Position numbers and translations under genes: made by a program | Notes under the pieces: generated by a model | Seen by the model: only the letters and a program-made list of their open reading frames with translations | Told to the model about the DNA's origin: nothing | Database searches by the model: none | Part shown: piece by piece, positions 16,438 to 24,241 of the stretch | Layout of the letters: each line of letters starts with the position of its first letter | How positions within the stretch are numbered: the first letter of the stretch is position 1 | Source: Nonomuraea rhizosphaerae | GTDB taxonomy: Bacteria > Actinomycetota > Actinomycetes > Streptosporangiales > Streptosporangiaceae | DNA length: 38,621 bases | Direction of reading: 5' to 3' | Assembly (NCBI RefSeq): GCF_019396405.1 | Contig: NZ_JAHKRL010000550.1 | Coordinates: forward strand, 1 to 38,621

Positions 16438-17144
16438 TGGGGTGCTGCCTTTCCGAAATAGCTCACCCGGAGATCACGGGAGCCCTTCGGGGCGGCGAAC
16501 GCCTGGGCCCGGCGCATTCCGGCGGGTGCCCCGCGCACGATCGTCAGCGCGCGGTAGTAGTCCACGTACGGGAATCCGTACGTCTCTCCTCGGGCGTACG
16601 CGTAACCCGTGATCGCCTTCGACCAGACCTCGTAGGCCTCGTCCGACAGGTCGACGAACACGTCCGGCGTGTAGCCGTCGGCGTCCTCCCAGTTGTCCGC
16701 GTAGTAGAGCTCGCTCGCCCAGTACGCGGGCAGCTCGCGCTCGAGCGTCTTCAGGCCGCCGTAGAAACGGGCGTCCTGCACGATCCGGTGGGTGCGGGCG
16801 TGGTCCTTGTGGATGGACTCGCTCCAGTGGGTGAGCAGCACGTCCGGCCGCAGCTCCCTGATCAGGTCGCCGACCCGCATCTTGACGTCCTCGTCCTCGG
16901 GCAGCAGGCCGTCCTCGTAGTCGAGGAAGCGGACGCCGGCGCCGATCGCCGCGGCGAACGTCTCGGCCTCCGCGCGCTTCTGCTTCGCGTACTCGGGGAC
17001 GGGCAGGCGCGGGTGGCCGCGCTCGCCGAGCGTCAGGTGCAGCAGCGTCGCGCGGTCGCCGCGCAGGACGTGCTGGGCGAGCACCGCGCCGGCGGTCAGG
17101 TCGAGGTCGCCGGCGTGGGCGCCGATCGCGAGTACGTGCGTCAT
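16434..17144 (-). CDS. PIG-L family deacetylase with altered metal/base motif
   Basis: A 236-residue protein of the LmbE/PIG-L fold, whose members are Zn-dependent de-N-acetylases such as MshB. The usual AHPDDE motif reads AHAGDLD: H10 and D13 keep the two metal ligands, but the position of the general-base Asp (MshB D15) is Gly12. The second motif is HKDHARTH (H112, H115, H119), giving the third ligand. The GxHAGD variant is, from memory, found in a recognised subgroup, so the protein need not be dead but may use another base or substrate. It sits between the GNAT gene (ATGA overlap) and the binding protein (ATGA overlap), so it probably acts on the imported ligand in the cytoplasm. Confidence 0.9.
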   Translation of the reverse strand: MTHVLAIGAHAGDLDLTAGAVLAQHVLRGDRATLLHLTLGERGHPRLPVPEYAKQKRAEAETFAAAIGAGVRFLDYEDGLLPEDEDVKMRVGDLIRELRPDVLLTHWSESIHKDHARTHRIVQDARFYGGLKTLERELPAYWASELYYADNWEDADGYTPDVFVDLSDEAYEVWSKAITGYAYARGETYGFPYVDYYRALTIVRGAPAGMRRAQAFAAPKGSRDLRVSYFGKAAPQ

Positions 17145-18178
17145 GCCTCAAGCCTCATCACGTGGAACCGCCTGGTGATCTCGTAGCCGGCCCTGGTGTA
17201 CAGGTGTCCGGCCGGGCTGGCCTCGCCCGTCCACAAGAACCAGGACGAATGCAGTCCTTCGGCGCGCATCATGGTCATGGTGAGATGCAGCAGGATCTTC
17301 CCCAGGCCGGTGCCGCGCTCGCCCTCGTCCACCCCGAACGGGCCGAACCGCTCGGGAATCCCCCGGTAGGCGGCGTAGAGCGCGAACCCGACGATGCGCC
17401 CATGGGCGCCCGCGCCTCCGCTCCCCCACTCAGTCCCGCGCTCGCTCTCCCCCTCGCCCTCGCCCTCGCCCTCGCTTTCGCTCTCGCTCTCGCTCTCGCT
17501 CTCGCGCTTCGCGATGATCATGCGCTTGGTGTCGCGGTGCTGCCTGATCGCCTCGCCCCAGTCGGGGTTGAAGGCGTCGGCCGCGAAGCGGATCAGCTCC
17601 GGCAGCTCCCCCTCGGTCGGGGGGCGGAACTCGTAGCCCTCGCTCACCCGCTTGGCCCGCAGGTCGTGCACCTCGCCGGGCGTCACGTACCCGACCAGCG
17701 TCCGGTCCATCGCGACCGGCGAGTACAGCGTCCGGAACCCCAGCCCGGTCAGCAGCCGGAACCCGTCCGGGTACAGCTCGGCGTCGGCCCCCGGCAGCAC
17801 GTAGTTGGGGGTGTAGGAGGCGAAGTCGATCCTGGTCCTGCCGTGCCCCTTCAGGAAGGCGACGGCCTCGCCGAGCAGCCTGCGTCCCAGGCCGGAGCCG
17901 CGGTGCTCGGGGGTGACGAAGAAGAACGGGATCCAGCCGGTGTCCGGCTCCAGGTCGGTCCCGGGCGCGAGCGGCGTCCGCCTGCGCACCGCGTACGCGC
18001 AGCCCGCCACCTGACCGTCGGCCACGGCGACGCGCAGGCCCTCCGGATCGAAGTTCGGATCGAGCAGTACGCAGTCGCGTAACCAGCCGGCGGTCGTCGG
18101 ATCGGCCGGCATGCTCCGGTTCCAGGCGTCGGTCAGCAGGAGCTCGTCCCCCGACGTGAACGCACGGACAGTGACCAT
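17141..18178 (-). CDS. Tandem GNAT N-acetyltransferase, first gene of the transporter operon
   Basis: A 345-residue protein with two GNAT domains. Domain 1 (about 1-155) has the acetyl-CoA loop VTPEHRGSGLGRRLLGEAV. Domain 2 (about 190-345) has DEGERGTGLGKILLHLTMTM and ends in the typical LYTRAGYEITRRF. Between strands of domain 2 (about residues 225-245) lies a run of SE then GE dipeptides encoded by ten 6-bp repeats, an unusual insertion. The ATG at 18178 has AAAGGA upstream. The stop overlaps the PIG-L start by 4 nt. It probably transfers an acetyl group to an amine; the acceptor is unknown but, given the operon, may be the imported compound or its deacetylated product. Confidence 0.9.
   Translation of the reverse strand: MVTVRAFTSGDELLLTDAWNRSMPADPTTAGWLRDCVLLDPNFDPEGLRVAVADGQVAGCAYAVRRRTPLAPGTDLEPDTGWIPFFFVTPEHRGSGLGRRLLGEAVAFLKGHGRTRIDFASYTPNYVLPGADAELYPDGFRLLTGLGFRTLYSPVAMDRTLVGYVTPGEVHDLRAKRVSEGYEFRPPTEGELPELIRFAADAFNPDWGEAIRQHRDTKRMIIAKRESESESESESEGEGEGEGESERGTEWGSGGAGAHGRIVGFALYAAYRGIPERFGPFGVDEGERGTGLGKILLHLTMTMMRAEGLHSSWFLWTGEASPAGHLYTRAGYEITRRFHVMRLEA
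17444..17503. repeat. Ten-unit hexanucleotide repeat inside the GNAT gene
   Basis: Ten consecutive 6-bp units (GCTCTC, CCCTC-type and GCCCTC variants on the + strand) encode alternating Ser-Glu and Gly-Glu dipeptides on the - strand. The unit length keeps the frame, so copy number could change without breaking the gene. Two sub-blocks, SE and GE, suggest separate expansions. Confidence 0.85.
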
Positions 18179-18902: not shown

Positions 18903-20516
18903 CTAATACACCCGCTCCCCCGCGAGCCACGTCCCCAGCACCGGGACACTCCCCACCGACGTCGGCTCGACCCGCCGCGGATCGTCCCCCAGCAGCACCA
19001 GGTCGGCGTCCGTCCCCACCGCCAGCACCCCGCGCCGGCGCTCGGCGAACGCCTGCCACGCCACGCCGCTCGTGTACGCGCGCAACGCCTCCTCCACCGG
19101 CAGCCGCTCGTCCGGCGTCCACGCCGCGCCCCCGTCCACCGTCCGCCTGGTGATCGCGATCTGGATGCCGAGCAGCGGCTCCTGCGAGCTGACCGGCCAG
19201 TCGCTGCCGAACGACAGCGCCGTGCCGAGCCGCGACAACGTCCTCATCGGGTACTGCGCCGCCGCCCGCGCCGCCCCGAGCCGCGGGATCGTCAGCTCCG
19301 TCTGCAGCGGGTCGAGCTGCGCCCACAACGGCTCGAAGTTCGCGATGACCCCCAGCTCGGCGAACCGCGGCAGGTCGGCGGGGTCCACGAGCTGCGTGTG
19401 CGCGATCACCGGCCGCCGGTCCCAGGGCTCGTTCCGCGCCGCCGCCTCTTGAATGGCGTCCAGCGCCGCCCGCACCCCGCCGTCGCCGATGGCGTGGATG
19501 TGCGCCTGGAACCCGTCGGCGTCGAACGCCGCCACCGCCTCGGCGAGCGCGGCGGGCTCCCAGACGGGCATGCCGCACGAATGCGGCGCGTCCTCGTAGG
19601 GCGCCAGCATCGCCGCCGTCCCGCCCTCGATGACCCCGTCGGCGAAGAACTTCACCGTACGAGCGGTGACCAGCCCTTCCGTACGGGCGGAAACCACCCC
19701 TTCCGTGCGAGCGGCCACCACCCCTTCCACCTTCGCCCGCTGCGTCCCGAACTCCGCCCGCTGTTCCGGCCACCTGTCCGGATCCGCCCTCAGCCCCAGA
19801 TTCACCCGAAATTTCAGGACATCCCGCCGCGCCGCCTCCACATAGGCGTCCACCATGTACGGCTCCACCCACGCGTCCTGCACCCACGTGATCCCGTACG
19901 CCGCCATGGCCCGCCCCGCCTCAGCCACCCCCTCCACCAGCTCGTCCATGCTCTTGCCCGGCACCAGATCCAGCACGAGGTCACAGGCGTGCCACTCGCG
20001 CAACGTCCCCATGGGCGTGCCGTCCCCGCGCCGCACGATCCACCCCAGCCGAGGGTCCGGCGTCTCCGCCGTGATCCCCGCCCGCTCCAGCGCGGCGGTG
20101 TTGCACCAGACCGTGTGATAGTCGTACGCCCTCAGCACCACCGGCCGATCGGGCACCACCGCGTCCAGCCAGCGGGCGTCGAACGCGCCGCCGGGGACGA
20201 TCGTCGGGTCGTAACTGCCGCCGACGATCCACTCCAGGCCGGGGTTCTCGCTCGCGTACCGGGCCACCTCGGCGACGATGTCCGCGACCGTCATACGGCC
20301 CTTGACCTGCGGGCCTTGAGCTTCCAGGCCACCGAAGAGCGGATGCGCGTGCCCGTCCCCGAACGCCGGCATGAGAAACCCGCCCTGGAGATCGACCCGC
20401 TCACCGTCAATGCGCAGGGCGTCATCGCCCAGGGCAGTGATCCGGCCGCCGGTCACGGCCAGGGCATGAGTGTGGCCGGTGCCTGTCCAGACAGCACCAC
20501 CGGTGAAAATCGTCAC
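18903..20516 (-). CDS. YtcJ-type metal-dependent amidohydrolase
   Basis: A 537-residue amidohydrolase_3 family enzyme. The N-terminal strand region MTIFTGGAVWTGTG and C-terminal VGTDADLVLLGDDPRRVE build the small beta domain; metal ligands include GDGHAH (residues about 53-58), the Lys/Glu region VKFFADG, AHIHAIGDGG, VIAHTQLV and FGSDWPVS. Members hydrolyse amides such as formamides or hydantoin-like rings; the substrate is unknown. Just before VKFFADG there are three tandem 8-residue repeats (EGVVAART type) that look inserted. The GTG at 20516 overlaps the NACHT gene stop by 4 nt, so the two genes are translationally linked. Confidence 0.9.
   Translation of the reverse strand: MTIFTGGAVWTGTGHTHALAVTGGRITALGDDALRIDGERVDLQGGFLMPAFGDGHAHPLFGGLEAQGPQVKGRMTVADIVAEVARYASENPGLEWIVGGSYDPTIVPGGAFDARWLDAVVPDRPVVLRAYDYHTVWCNTAALERAGITAETPDPRLGWIVRRGDGTPMGTLREWHACDLVLDLVPGKSMDELVEGVAEAGRAMAAYGITWVQDAWVEPYMVDAYVEAARRDVLKFRVNLGLRADPDRWPEQRAEFGTQRAKVEGVVAARTEGVVSARTEGLVTARTVKFFADGVIEGGTAAMLAPYEDAPHSCGMPVWEPAALAEAVAAFDADGFQAHIHAIGDGGVRAALDAIQEAAARNEPWDRRPVIAHTQLVDPADLPRFAELGVIANFEPLWAQLDPLQTELTIPRLGAARAAAQYPMRTLSRLGTALSFGSDWPVSSQEPLLGIQIAITRRTVDGGAAWTPDERLPVEEALRAYTSGVAWQAFAERRRGVLAVGTDADLVLLGDDPRRVEPTSVGSVPVLGTWLAGERVY
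19657..19728. repeat. Three tandem 24-bp repeats in the amidohydrolase gene
   Basis: Units at 19657-19680, 19681-19704 and 19705-19728 are near-identical (each ends CCTTCC and starts GTACG or GTGCG). On the - strand they encode EGVVAART, EGVVSART and EGLVTART, so the reading frame is kept. Confidence 0.9.
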
Positions 20517-23086
20517 GGAGCGGTCCGCCTCAACATTGCACGAACATGCGTTATGAAGGTGCGCGCTGACTCAGACGACTCCTCGATCCGTGCCATCAGC
20601 TCTTCGGCGTCCTCGTCGGGGCAATCCGCAAGATGACCTGCCATCACCCGCTCCAGCAACCAGGCATCACCTCTTCCCTCCCACTCATTGATCGCGGCGG
20701 AGTATGTCGCGATCTCGGCGGTCAGGCCTTCATTCGCAAGCATCAGCACTCTCAGCAGAGTGTGCAGCCGCACGCCGATCAGTCCGCTCGTCGTGTGCGC
20801 CAGCGGCCTCATGGCATGGGTCAACGCGAACATGTCGAGCTGATAGGAAAACACAGCCTCGTCCTGCATCCGCAGAACGTCCGAGTTATCCAGCTCGGTG
20901 AGCGGCAACCCCTCGAAGACATCGCCCATGAGTGTCAGCGCGATGTCCGCCCCCTCGGGACAGGCCGCGACCACGTCCACGATGCTGCGCCACTCCTCCG
21001 CCGCGCACTGCGAGCGCCACAGCAGCGCGTACCGCCGCCACTCCGTCACCACGTCCTCGTACCCCGGCATGAGGACACTCGCGTGCACAACATCCCCACC
21101 CGCCAGCGCCATCAACATCAGGTTCGCCGAGTAGTAGGCGTACCGCCGCTGCGGCCCGGCGATCCACGGCCGGTACCCCGGGTACGCGTGGTCCTCCCGC
21201 GTCTCCAACCGCCGGAACAGCCTGATGACCAGGTCCCGCCAGCCCGCCCCGTCCTGCTCCGCCATCTCCCCCAGGAACGACAGGACGGGCGTCCGGCTGG
21301 AGAGCGTCGCCCACGACAGCAGGGCTCGCATCAGCCCGTCGTCGACATCCCTCGCGACCGCCGCCGACTCCTGCACCCGCAGGTCGCGCAGCAGCGAGGC
21401 CAGCAGCCTGGCGATGAGGAACTCCCCGAACGTGGCGTGCAGGAACTCGAACGTCCGCAACGCCCGCCCGTCCCGGTTGGCCCGCGCCTCGTGAACGAAG
21501 AAGAACTTCCCCGGAGCCAGCTCCCCCGCCGTCAGCGGCGTCGCGAACCCCGGCTCCTTCTCAGGCCGACCCGCCAGCCTCAACCCCCTGAGGTCGGCGT
21601 CGAACTCCTCCCCGGTCGTCCACTGCCGTCCCCGGTTGAACATCGAGAACGCCACGCACGCCAGCTGCACCATCTCCCGCTCGACCAGCGCCGGGACCTG
21701 GTCCTTGAGGTAGGACTTGACCAGCTCCCGCTCCACGAACCTCCGCATGAGCCGCTCGTACAGCTCCACCTGCCTCAACTGGGCGGCCGACAGCAGCGCG
21801 TTCCCGTCGGCGTCGTAGAGCGCCAGCATCAGCAGCAGCAACGGCTGCCCGGCGAGCGGCCCCTGCGCCCTGGCCACCTCAGGACTTAACGGAGAAAGAC
21901 CCCGTTCTCTGAAATATCCGGCGTTGTTGTGGTTCCACACGGTGAGCCAGTGATCGATCTGCTCGTCGTCGAACGGCTCCAGCCTGGCGACGACCGTTCC
22001 CTCCGGGAAGCTCGCCCGCCCGGCCACCGCCGTACGCGAGGTGACCACGAACGCCACGGCCCGTCCGGCGTCCATCTCCCGCCGCTGGAACTGGACGACC
22101 TTCTCCAGGTAGTCGGTCTGCCGCACCCCGGTCGCCTGCAGCAGTTCGTCGAACCCGTCGAGGAAGACCACCCGCAGCACGCCGGCGGCTCCCCTGGCCA
22201 GCGCGGGCCACTCCACCCGCTCCCCGCTCAGCCCGTACACGGCCTGCTCGATCTGCCGCTGCAGGTCCGCCTCCGCCGCGACCTCGCGCAACGGCACCCT
22301 GATCGGCAGGAACCGCTCCTGCGGCAGCGTCGCGGACAGCATCTTCGTCAGCACGGACTTCCCGGCCCCCGGCTGGCCGAGCACCACCAGCGGAACCCTG
22401 GTGGCCATCCCGCTGGTCAGGTACCCGGCCAGGAACCCCGGCAGATCCCGCCGCACCTCCCGGCCCGCCCACTCCGACTCCGCGCCCGGGTCGCCGCCCA
22501 GCTCCCGGACGTCGGCGACGCGGAACTGCGGCGTGATGTAGGCCTGTCCGAGCATGGGCAGCCGCATCCCCTCCGGCACGTCCCCCGTCTCGGCGATCGG
22601 CCGCCGCAGCACGGCGCGGTGCAGCCGCGAAATCGTCTCAAGCTGAGCGGGCAGCGCCTCCCCCGCCGGCCCCGGCAGGAGCAACTGCCGCAGATCCGCC
22701 AGCTGCCGCCGCGTCGCCTGCCCGTCGAGCATCCCGGCCCAGAGCGCGAACTCGGGAACCTCCACCGCCAGCTGCCGGAACCGCTCCTCGTACCGCCCCA
22801 CGGCCGCCGGCTCCAGCGCGTCCCGGCACAGCGCGCGCGCCCTCTCCCACTCCGCCTCGTCAAGCGCCTCCCGCGCCCGAAGCCCGCCGAAGAAGTCCAC
22901 CAGCCCAGCGGCGCAGGCCGAGTACACCCGCCGGACCCGGTGAACATTCCGCTCGAAGGGCCACTGCGGCGCCGGGCAGGGCACGTCGTCCATGTCCAGC
23001 AGCACGCCCTGCTCGTCCCTGCTGAGCCGCCTCAGTCCAGGAGGCAACTCCAGGCCACGCAGGGCCTCCAGGAAGGAGGTGATCAC
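20513..23086 (-). CDS. NACHT-domain NTPase, main part of a frame interrupted upstream
   Basis: An 857-residue open frame for a STAND-type NTPase. Walker A is GQPGAGKS (K243), Walker B is VVFLDGFDELL (D310, D313/E314), followed by a sensor-like FVVTSRTAV and a winged-helix-like region; the C-terminal 450 residues are helical, with no LRR or TPR repeat seen and no membrane anchor. Related bacterial NACHT proteins include antiphage defence proteins. The frame continues upstream of the GTG at 23086 with good family-like sequence (DLIDAKGELIKVGNDLL, RTERLEAAHALLV) back to an ATG at 23323, but a TGA at 23216-23218 cuts it. The GTG at 23086 has no SD, so expression of this part is doubtful. The stop overlaps the amidohydrolase start (GTGA). 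Confidence 0.85.
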   Translation of the reverse strand: MITSFLEALRGLELPPGLRRLSRDEQGVLLDMDDVPCPAPQWPFERNVHRVRRVYSACAAGLVDFFGGLRAREALDEAEWERARALCRDALEPAAVGRYEERFRQLAVEVPEFALWAGMLDGQATRRQLADLRQLLLPGPAGEALPAQLETISRLHRAVLRRPIAETGDVPEGMRLPMLGQAYITPQFRVADVRELGGDPGAESEWAGREVRRDLPGFLAGYLTSGMATRVPLVVLGQPGAGKSVLTKMLSATLPQERFLPIRVPLREVAAEADLQRQIEQAVYGLSGERVEWPALARGAAGVLRVVFLDGFDELLQATGVRQTDYLEKVVQFQRREMDAGRAVAFVVTSRTAVAGRASFPEGTVVARLEPFDDEQIDHWLTVWNHNNAGYFRERGLSPLSPEVARAQGPLAGQPLLLLMLALYDADGNALLSAAQLRQVELYERLMRRFVERELVKSYLKDQVPALVEREMVQLACVAFSMFNRGRQWTTGEEFDADLRGLRLAGRPEKEPGFATPLTAGELAPGKFFFVHEARANRDGRALRTFEFLHATFGEFLIARLLASLLRDLRVQESAAVARDVDDGLMRALLSWATLSSRTPVLSFLGEMAEQDGAGWRDLVIRLFRRLETREDHAYPGYRPWIAGPQRRYAYYSANLMLMALAGGDVVHASVLMPGYEDVVTEWRRYALLWRSQCAAEEWRSIVDVVAACPEGADIALTLMGDVFEGLPLTELDNSDVLRMQDEAVFSYQLDMFALTHAMRPLAHTTSGLIGVRLHTLLRVLMLANEGLTAEIATYSAAINEWEGRGDAWLLERVMAGHLADCPDEDAEELMARIEESSESARTFITHVRAMLRRTAP

Positions 23087-23215
23087 CAGAAGCGCGTGGG
23101 CGGCCTCCAGCCGTTCGGTGCGGCTGCTCCACCTCGTGTCCGAGCGCCACTCCCGCCACCGGCCGAGCAGATCGTTCCCGACCTTGATCAGCTCACCCTT
23201 GGCGTCGATCAGATC

Positions 23216-23323
23216 TCAGGCACCGAGCGTGCCGACCCCCAGAACGGTGTCGAGCACCTTGATCGCCGGATCCGTCCCGCCGAGCAACCGGACCGCGTCG
23301 CTGTACCGATATCCCCGCGCCAT
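23216..23323 (-). pseudogene. Amino-terminal fragment of the NACHT gene ending in an in-frame TGA
   Basis: The ATG at 23323 opens 35 codons, starting MARGYRYSDAVRLLGG and ending VLGVGTLGA, then TGA at 23216-23218. In the same frame the sequence continues with DLIDAKGEL and joins the long NACHT frame, so the original protein would have about 936 residues. RYSDAVRLLGG is the typical opening of actinobacterial NACHT proteins with a helical N-terminal domain. A TGG-to-TGA change (Trp) would explain the stop. It may be a true null mutation, a sequencing error or read-through. Confidence 0.8.
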
Positions 23324-23331
23324 GCGGGGAT
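23311..23331. promoter_or_regulatory. Hairpin holding the NACHT ATG in its loop
   Basis: On the coding (-) strand, ATCCCCGC (23331-23324), the loop ATGGC (23323-23319) and GCGGGGAT (23318-23311) form a perfect 8-bp stem whose 5-nt loop begins with the start codon. An AAGG word lies 13 bp upstream of the ATG. Such a stem could limit ribosome access. Confidence 0.65.
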
Positions 23332-23443
23332 CGTAACCTTCTGATCACCGCGGAGCGTACGGTTGCGGCCGGAGCCCCCTGGCGTTGACCGGACGCATGC
23401 GCTCCACCCCGCAAGGCCGCGTCGCCGACGCGCAGGACAGAAC

Positions 23444-24119: not shown

Positions 24120-24168
24120 GCGAGGAACAACGGCCAGCCGCCCAAACGGGCAACAGGTGGATGCGGGG

Positions 24169-24241
24169 TGGAGCTATGGGGATTCGAACCCCAGACCTCC
24201 TCCATGCCATGGAGGCGCGCTACCAACTGCGCCATAGCCCC
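24169..24241 (-). tRNA. tRNA-Ala (anticodon GGC)
   Basis: The 73-nt cloverleaf folds fully on the - strand: acceptor GGGGCTA with TAGCTCC, including the G3:U70 pair that identifies alanine tRNAs, D-arm with AGTTGGTA, anticodon stem CCTCC/GGAGG with loop ATGGCAT (anticodon GGC), and T-arm with TTCGAAT. The discriminator base is A. The 3' CCA is not encoded (ACC then CC). It lies between two loci with damaged genes. Confidence 0.97.

Follow-up and report, generated by a model that had tools for sequence, protein, structure and literature searches.

A probable recent nonsense allele of an NNH7-NACHT-like STAND NTPase gene in Nonomuraea rhizosphaerae

Introduction

Does an in-frame TGA near the start of a long STAND NTPase gene in Nonomuraea rhizosphaerae mark a lost gene, a sequence error, or a stop that the cell can pass? 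The gene lies in the window, by which we mean the whole 38,621-nt stretch that was analyzed (contig NZ_JAHKRL010000550.1). A first-pass annotation had described it as a NACHT NTPase gene in which a change from a Trp codon to TGA would explain the stop, and which could be a recent loss or a switchable or suppressed allele. We consider it probable that a gene of a known kind has here taken an ordinary and recent nonsense change, Trp codon 36 to TGA, and that the allele is null or nearly so.

Results

The frame is open except at codon 36

Re-reading the minus strand from 23323 to 20513 confirmed the in-frame TGA at codon 36 and the continuing frame. From the ATG at 23323, 35 codons encode MARGYRYSDAVRLLGGTDPAIKVLDTVLGVGTLGA and are followed by the TGA. 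The same frame then runs on as DLIDAKGELIKV... for 900 sense codons, with no further stop until the terminal TGA at 20515-20513. The longest conventional ORF would start only at a GTG at 23086 (codon 80). The features of the locus, all on the minus strand, are:

18903..20516, minus strand: amidohydrolase gene (Amidohydro_3), whose GTG start overlaps the stop of the NACHT-like gene (GTGA)
20513..23323, minus strand: interrupted NNH7-NACHT-like STAND NTPase gene, open but for codon 36, with NNH7 on either side of the stop and a start common to the 11 closest genus copies
22139..22378, minus strand: P-loop (GQPGAGKS) to LDGFDELLQ, NACHT-like core, residues 316-395, conserved in a 7-sequence alignment
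22727..23215, minus strand: remainder of NNH7 after the stop (downstream protein 151.6 bits; genome match 22727-23317 with one TGA)
23216..23218, minus strand: in-frame TGA, codon 36
23219..23323, minus strand: N-terminal 35 codons, first piece of NNH7 (PF22738, 28.7 bits, profile 2-34)
23330..23335, minus strand: TANNNT (TACGAT), -10-like, 6 nt before the ATG

The 35-residue piece alone exceeds the Pfam NNH7 cut-off of 27 bits, and the piece after the stop matches profile positions 47-224. Matches in both pieces are more than chance would give, indicating one domain cut in two. Read through the TGA as a single genome match, NNH7 scores 189.4 bits with one TGA, and the gene belongs to the Pfam family.

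The NACHT label of the first-pass annotation stood in part. GQPGAGKS (one position being Ala or Ser) and LDGFDE, which we take to be a P-loop and an acidic Walker B-type motif, are kept in all seven aligned sequences. The Pfam NACHT profile (PF05729), in contrast, reaches only 18.1 bits (E 0.0025) against a cut-off of 26.7, and we therefore call the core NACHT-like. AAA_22, at 23.4 bits, is likewise under its cut-off. As judged from its sequence, the intact protein carries NNH7, then a P-loop core of NACHT-like type, then a C-terminal region. The more distant matches mostly stop at about residue 750 of the 900-residue query, which would fit a variable sensor at the C-terminus.

An AlphaFold model of residues 1-215 has a mean pLDDT of 77.1, falling to block means of about 44-58 in the stretch that surrounds the stop (residues 21-50). 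A Foldseek search of this model against the PDB gave no known fold for NNH7 at E ≤0.001 (best E 0.6), and searching PDB sequences with the alignment gave no match at E 0.01. A membrane-inserting helix at the NNH7 N-terminus was also considered. Peak hydropathy is at least 1.6 in 13 of 50 N-termini, but the remainder of the domain reaches this value in 10 of 50, and the idea is not convincing; in the window N-terminus hydropathy reaches 1.27.

Close relatives have a sense codon at the stop column

We searched 98 genomes, including the window's own, and found a match in 51. The stop column was compared in 29 relatives with recovered loci, leaving out one fragment (L028). The 11 closest are all the places in the genus, other than that of the window gene itself, with an E value no higher than 1e-200. 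Eight have Trp (TGG) at the column, three have Gly or Ala, and none has a stop, which bears out the claim that a TGG was lost to TGA. All 11 open with RYx(D/E)AV and have an ATG 35 or 36 codons ahead of the column; none of them starts past the stop. No stop was found at the column in any of the 29, the residue in the more distant 18 being read without gaps and so approximate. A stop that interrupts a domain where homologues have a sense codon is what marks a pseudogene or nonsense allele, and this one does so. A scan of the genome collection with the window protein alone as query confirmed no relative.

A second set, 79 named loci plus the nearest intact genus relative (G016), was aligned with MAFFT. 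Drawn from the best 80 of 331 hits, it may under-represent badly broken copies, and it shares some genomes with the first set. Among these best 80, the column is Leu or Ile in 65, Trp in three, a gap in one and another residue in 11. In all 79 named loci among them the frame reaches at least 35 residues ahead of the column, and no stop was seen there.

The intact Nonomuraea NNH7-NACHT-like genes, of which the nearest has 66% identity, share with the window gene the start, NNH7 and the P-loop core, and the nearest also share its C-terminal region. They differ in having other neighbors and no in-frame stop at this place. Residue 35, beside the stop, is also unusual: it is Ala in the window gene, where each of the 11 closest copies carries Met, Val, Leu or Ile. 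This hints slightly that changes may be tolerated at the site.

The remaining sequence is not visibly decayed

Unique changes were counted in the window gene and in G016 against six outgroups. The counts (window/G016) were 57/83, 54/80, 57/68, 49/60, 38/48 and 41/45, lower for the window each time. The two genes have a pairwise dN of 0.269 and dS of 1.01. Apart from the stop column, 256 columns are invariant in seven relatives, and the window gene differs at 6 of them; a leave-one-out count over the same seven gave departures at 4 to 24 of 254-274 columns. The remainder of the gene looks normally constrained, with no sign of long decay in its sequence, so the change is either young or an error. 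If the base is real the lesion is young, in keeping with the recent loss proposed by the first-pass annotation. The close match to relatives is, on sequence grounds, equally expected from a sequence error or from a still-functional gene.

By our count, about one in nine NNH7 copies in the genus is broken

To place the window allele among its relatives, we took the NNH7 matches from 54 genomes of the genus. The search gave 92 rows from 49 genomes, and two rows fell short of the family cut-off. Joining split pairs in G010 and G044 reduced these to 90 NNH7 copies, of which 10 were judged broken or eroded: the window copy (G000), G012, G016:C119, G051, G010, G044, G007:C1, G042:C17, G022:C51 and G027:C8. 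For the nine copies from outside the window we ran tblastn on stretches of sequence from these loci as a check, and the other 80 were judged on domain coverage and open-frame length only (738 or more).

Like the window copy, the nine are interrupted or eroded NNH7-NACHT genes. They are frameshifted, deleted or fragments, whereas the window copy has one lesion only. Among the 92 rows, a stop inside the NNH7 match occurs only in the window and in the G051 relic, from a single-contig genome, where a TGA likewise sits in a Trp position. In G010, also a single-contig genome, the broken gene (L057 3909-4542) changes frame at profile positions 36-41. This break lies near the position of the window's stop but looks like a frameshift, and the nearness is probably coincidence.

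A broken fraction of about one in nine is as expected if such immune-type genes are gained and lost quickly. The window allele adds one case to this frequent breakage and alone matters little. Among 15 of 50 papers matching on premature stops, pseudogenes, defense systems and NACHT, none treats broken bacterial NACHT genes, as judged from titles and the opening parts of abstracts.

One NNH7-NACHT-like copy in G044 (G044:C2, L050 5676-12764) has an open frame of some 2360 residues, much longer than in its relatives; part of it, ahead of the homologous ATG, may be open by chance. An aldehyde dehydrogenase gene lies directly ahead of the NNH7-NACHT-like copy in G044 (L041 10828-12396), and genes sharing its C-terminal end precede several other NNH7-NACHT-like copies.

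The start may be leaderless

The -10-like element ahead of the ATG is shared by part of the clade. Of 12 clade members, four (among them the window gene) have TANNNT starting 12 or 13 nt before the ATG, versus 2.2% in base shuffles. Four more have xATAAT at the same place by eye, and neither motif is seen in the other four. The pattern suggests a leaderless start, with translation that would open at the ATG and terminate at codon 36.

Discussion

How the allele may have arisen and what else could explain it

In the explanation we favor, a full-length NNH7-NACHT-like STAND gene took one point change that made Trp codon 36 a TGA. Ribosomes starting at the ATG, on what is probably a leaderless transcript, would terminate after 35 residues within the effector-side helical domain, and little or no protein would be made, leaving the allele null or near-null. 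It would be recent because nothing else in the gene is visibly decayed. Its main rival is an artefact of consensus calling or assembly, or a variant from a minority strain that entered the consensus, with the gene intact in most cells; we regard this as rather unlikely. The genome (5.9 Mb in 555 contigs, 64% complete) is incomplete and fragmented, from which we judge it probably a metagenome bin, and an intact, constrained remainder is what an error predicts. Against this, an assembly full of error stops finds no support in two control families from the same genome. ABC_tran had internal stops in 0 of 138 matches (150 of 226 first-look candidates scored). In MFS_1, 4 of 88 matches were flagged, and all four proved on inspection to be natural gene ends, leaving none with a real internal stop. 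Over the 47,233 matched codons, a few counted twice, the rule of three allows at most about 0.06 error stops per 936-codon gene, compared with a broken fraction of 9/89 among the other genus NNH7 copies. Since real breakage is common in the family, we prefer a true nonsense allele over an error and infer that the consensus base is correct.

A later start might still give a working protein, either shortened from the GTG at codon 80 or comprising the NACHT-like core and C-terminus from ATG codons 253/257. The long open frame past the stop would allow this, and a purine-rich, GGAGG-like stretch lies near codons 253/257. We think it improbable: in the 11 closest copies conservation starts right from the ATG, the named loci among the best 80 of 331 hits all extend at least 35 residues ahead of the column, and a start at codon 80, the first in frame past the stop, loses over a third of NNH7 while 253/257 loses all of it. 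Codon 80 is also without a good ribosome-binding site, and none of the restart candidates has a convincing Shine-Dalgarno site. Less probable still is that UGA is read through or suppressed, the TGA acting as a throttle or switch on the protein. The lack of further decay would fit, but the 44 tRNA genes found have ordinary anticodons, including one tRNA-Trp (CCA) and no UGA-reading tRNA (UCA), which in a genome 64% complete is weak evidence of absence. The best tRNA-Sec match has 42.5 bits, under the cut-off of 47, and ARAGORN calls it tRNA-Ser. Folding of the 65 nt around and after the TGA is ordinary (z -0.39; 68 of 200 shuffles as good), which also speaks against a structured read-through signal. 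With neither a tRNA-Sec over the cut-off nor a hairpin signal after the TGA in this incomplete genome, we rejected a selenoprotein. The column is moreover without a stop in the 29 relatives and in the 79 named loci among the best 80 of 331. The switchable or suppressed allele of the first-pass annotation accordingly found no backing. A variant in which the TGA allele is tolerated and either reversible or read through at a low level, keeping a costly, self-harming STAND protein near-silent while rare revertant or mistranslated molecules protect a few cells, seems to us very improbable too. Were the stop functional, it would be a new way of checking an NLR-like protein; nothing found supports that.

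A possible role in defense

Under the favored explanation, the protein lost would be an NLR-like one, and an antiphage function of the intact protein is plausible by analogy. The bNACHT antiphage proteins (bNACHT25 and others) are described as having an N-terminal effector, a central NACHT and a C-terminal sensor (PMC12169576), a tripartite plan common to the window protein. They differ in that bNACHT25 is described with a nuclease effector and shown defense (PMC12169576), whereas for NNH7 we found neither a known fold nor a known activity. By this analogy the C-terminus would sense an invader, oligomerization would follow and the N-terminal domain would act (PMC12169576). Searches for defense families gave nothing of weight: the best PADLOC match has 15.9 bits, and NCBIfam EruA has 18.2 bits versus a cut-off of 1000.

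The G016 copy stands after genes for Cse1/Cse2, CT1975 (Cas7-type), Cas5 and CRISPR_assoc (Cas6-type) and before a transposase-like gene. The cas genes are presumably type I-E. This neighborhood gives limited contextual support for a defense role. By eye, this nearest intact relative (L040 2024-12180) also follows an apparent CRISPR array.

In an even sample of the phylum, with up to 7 candidates scored per genome, NNH7 is present in at least six of 396 genomes at E 0.001 and over the cut-off in at least three, the window's own included. Many further actinobacterial genera have proteins that are related along most of their length.

Neighboring genes

A conserved NACHT-amidohydrolase operon was also considered. 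It was not borne out in the four genus relatives of the amidohydrolase that were found: their genes either sit on a different contig from NNH7 or belong to genomes with no NNH7 match among those listed. A tRNA-Ala gene (GGC) at 24167-24241 lies just upstream of a DUF4440/SnoaL-like gene and the NACHT-like gene. Integration at this tRNA was considered and rejected, as none of the eight direct-repeat families of 18 nt or longer between 17000 and 24400 includes the tRNA and no att-like repeat was seen. Inside the amidohydrolase gene, three 24-nt direct repeats stand in tandem at 19655-19726, each unit coding for 8 residues if in frame. At about 17390-17490, within an acetyltransferase-like gene (17141-18178), a run of Ser-Glu and then Gly-Glu codons forms a simple-sequence stretch.
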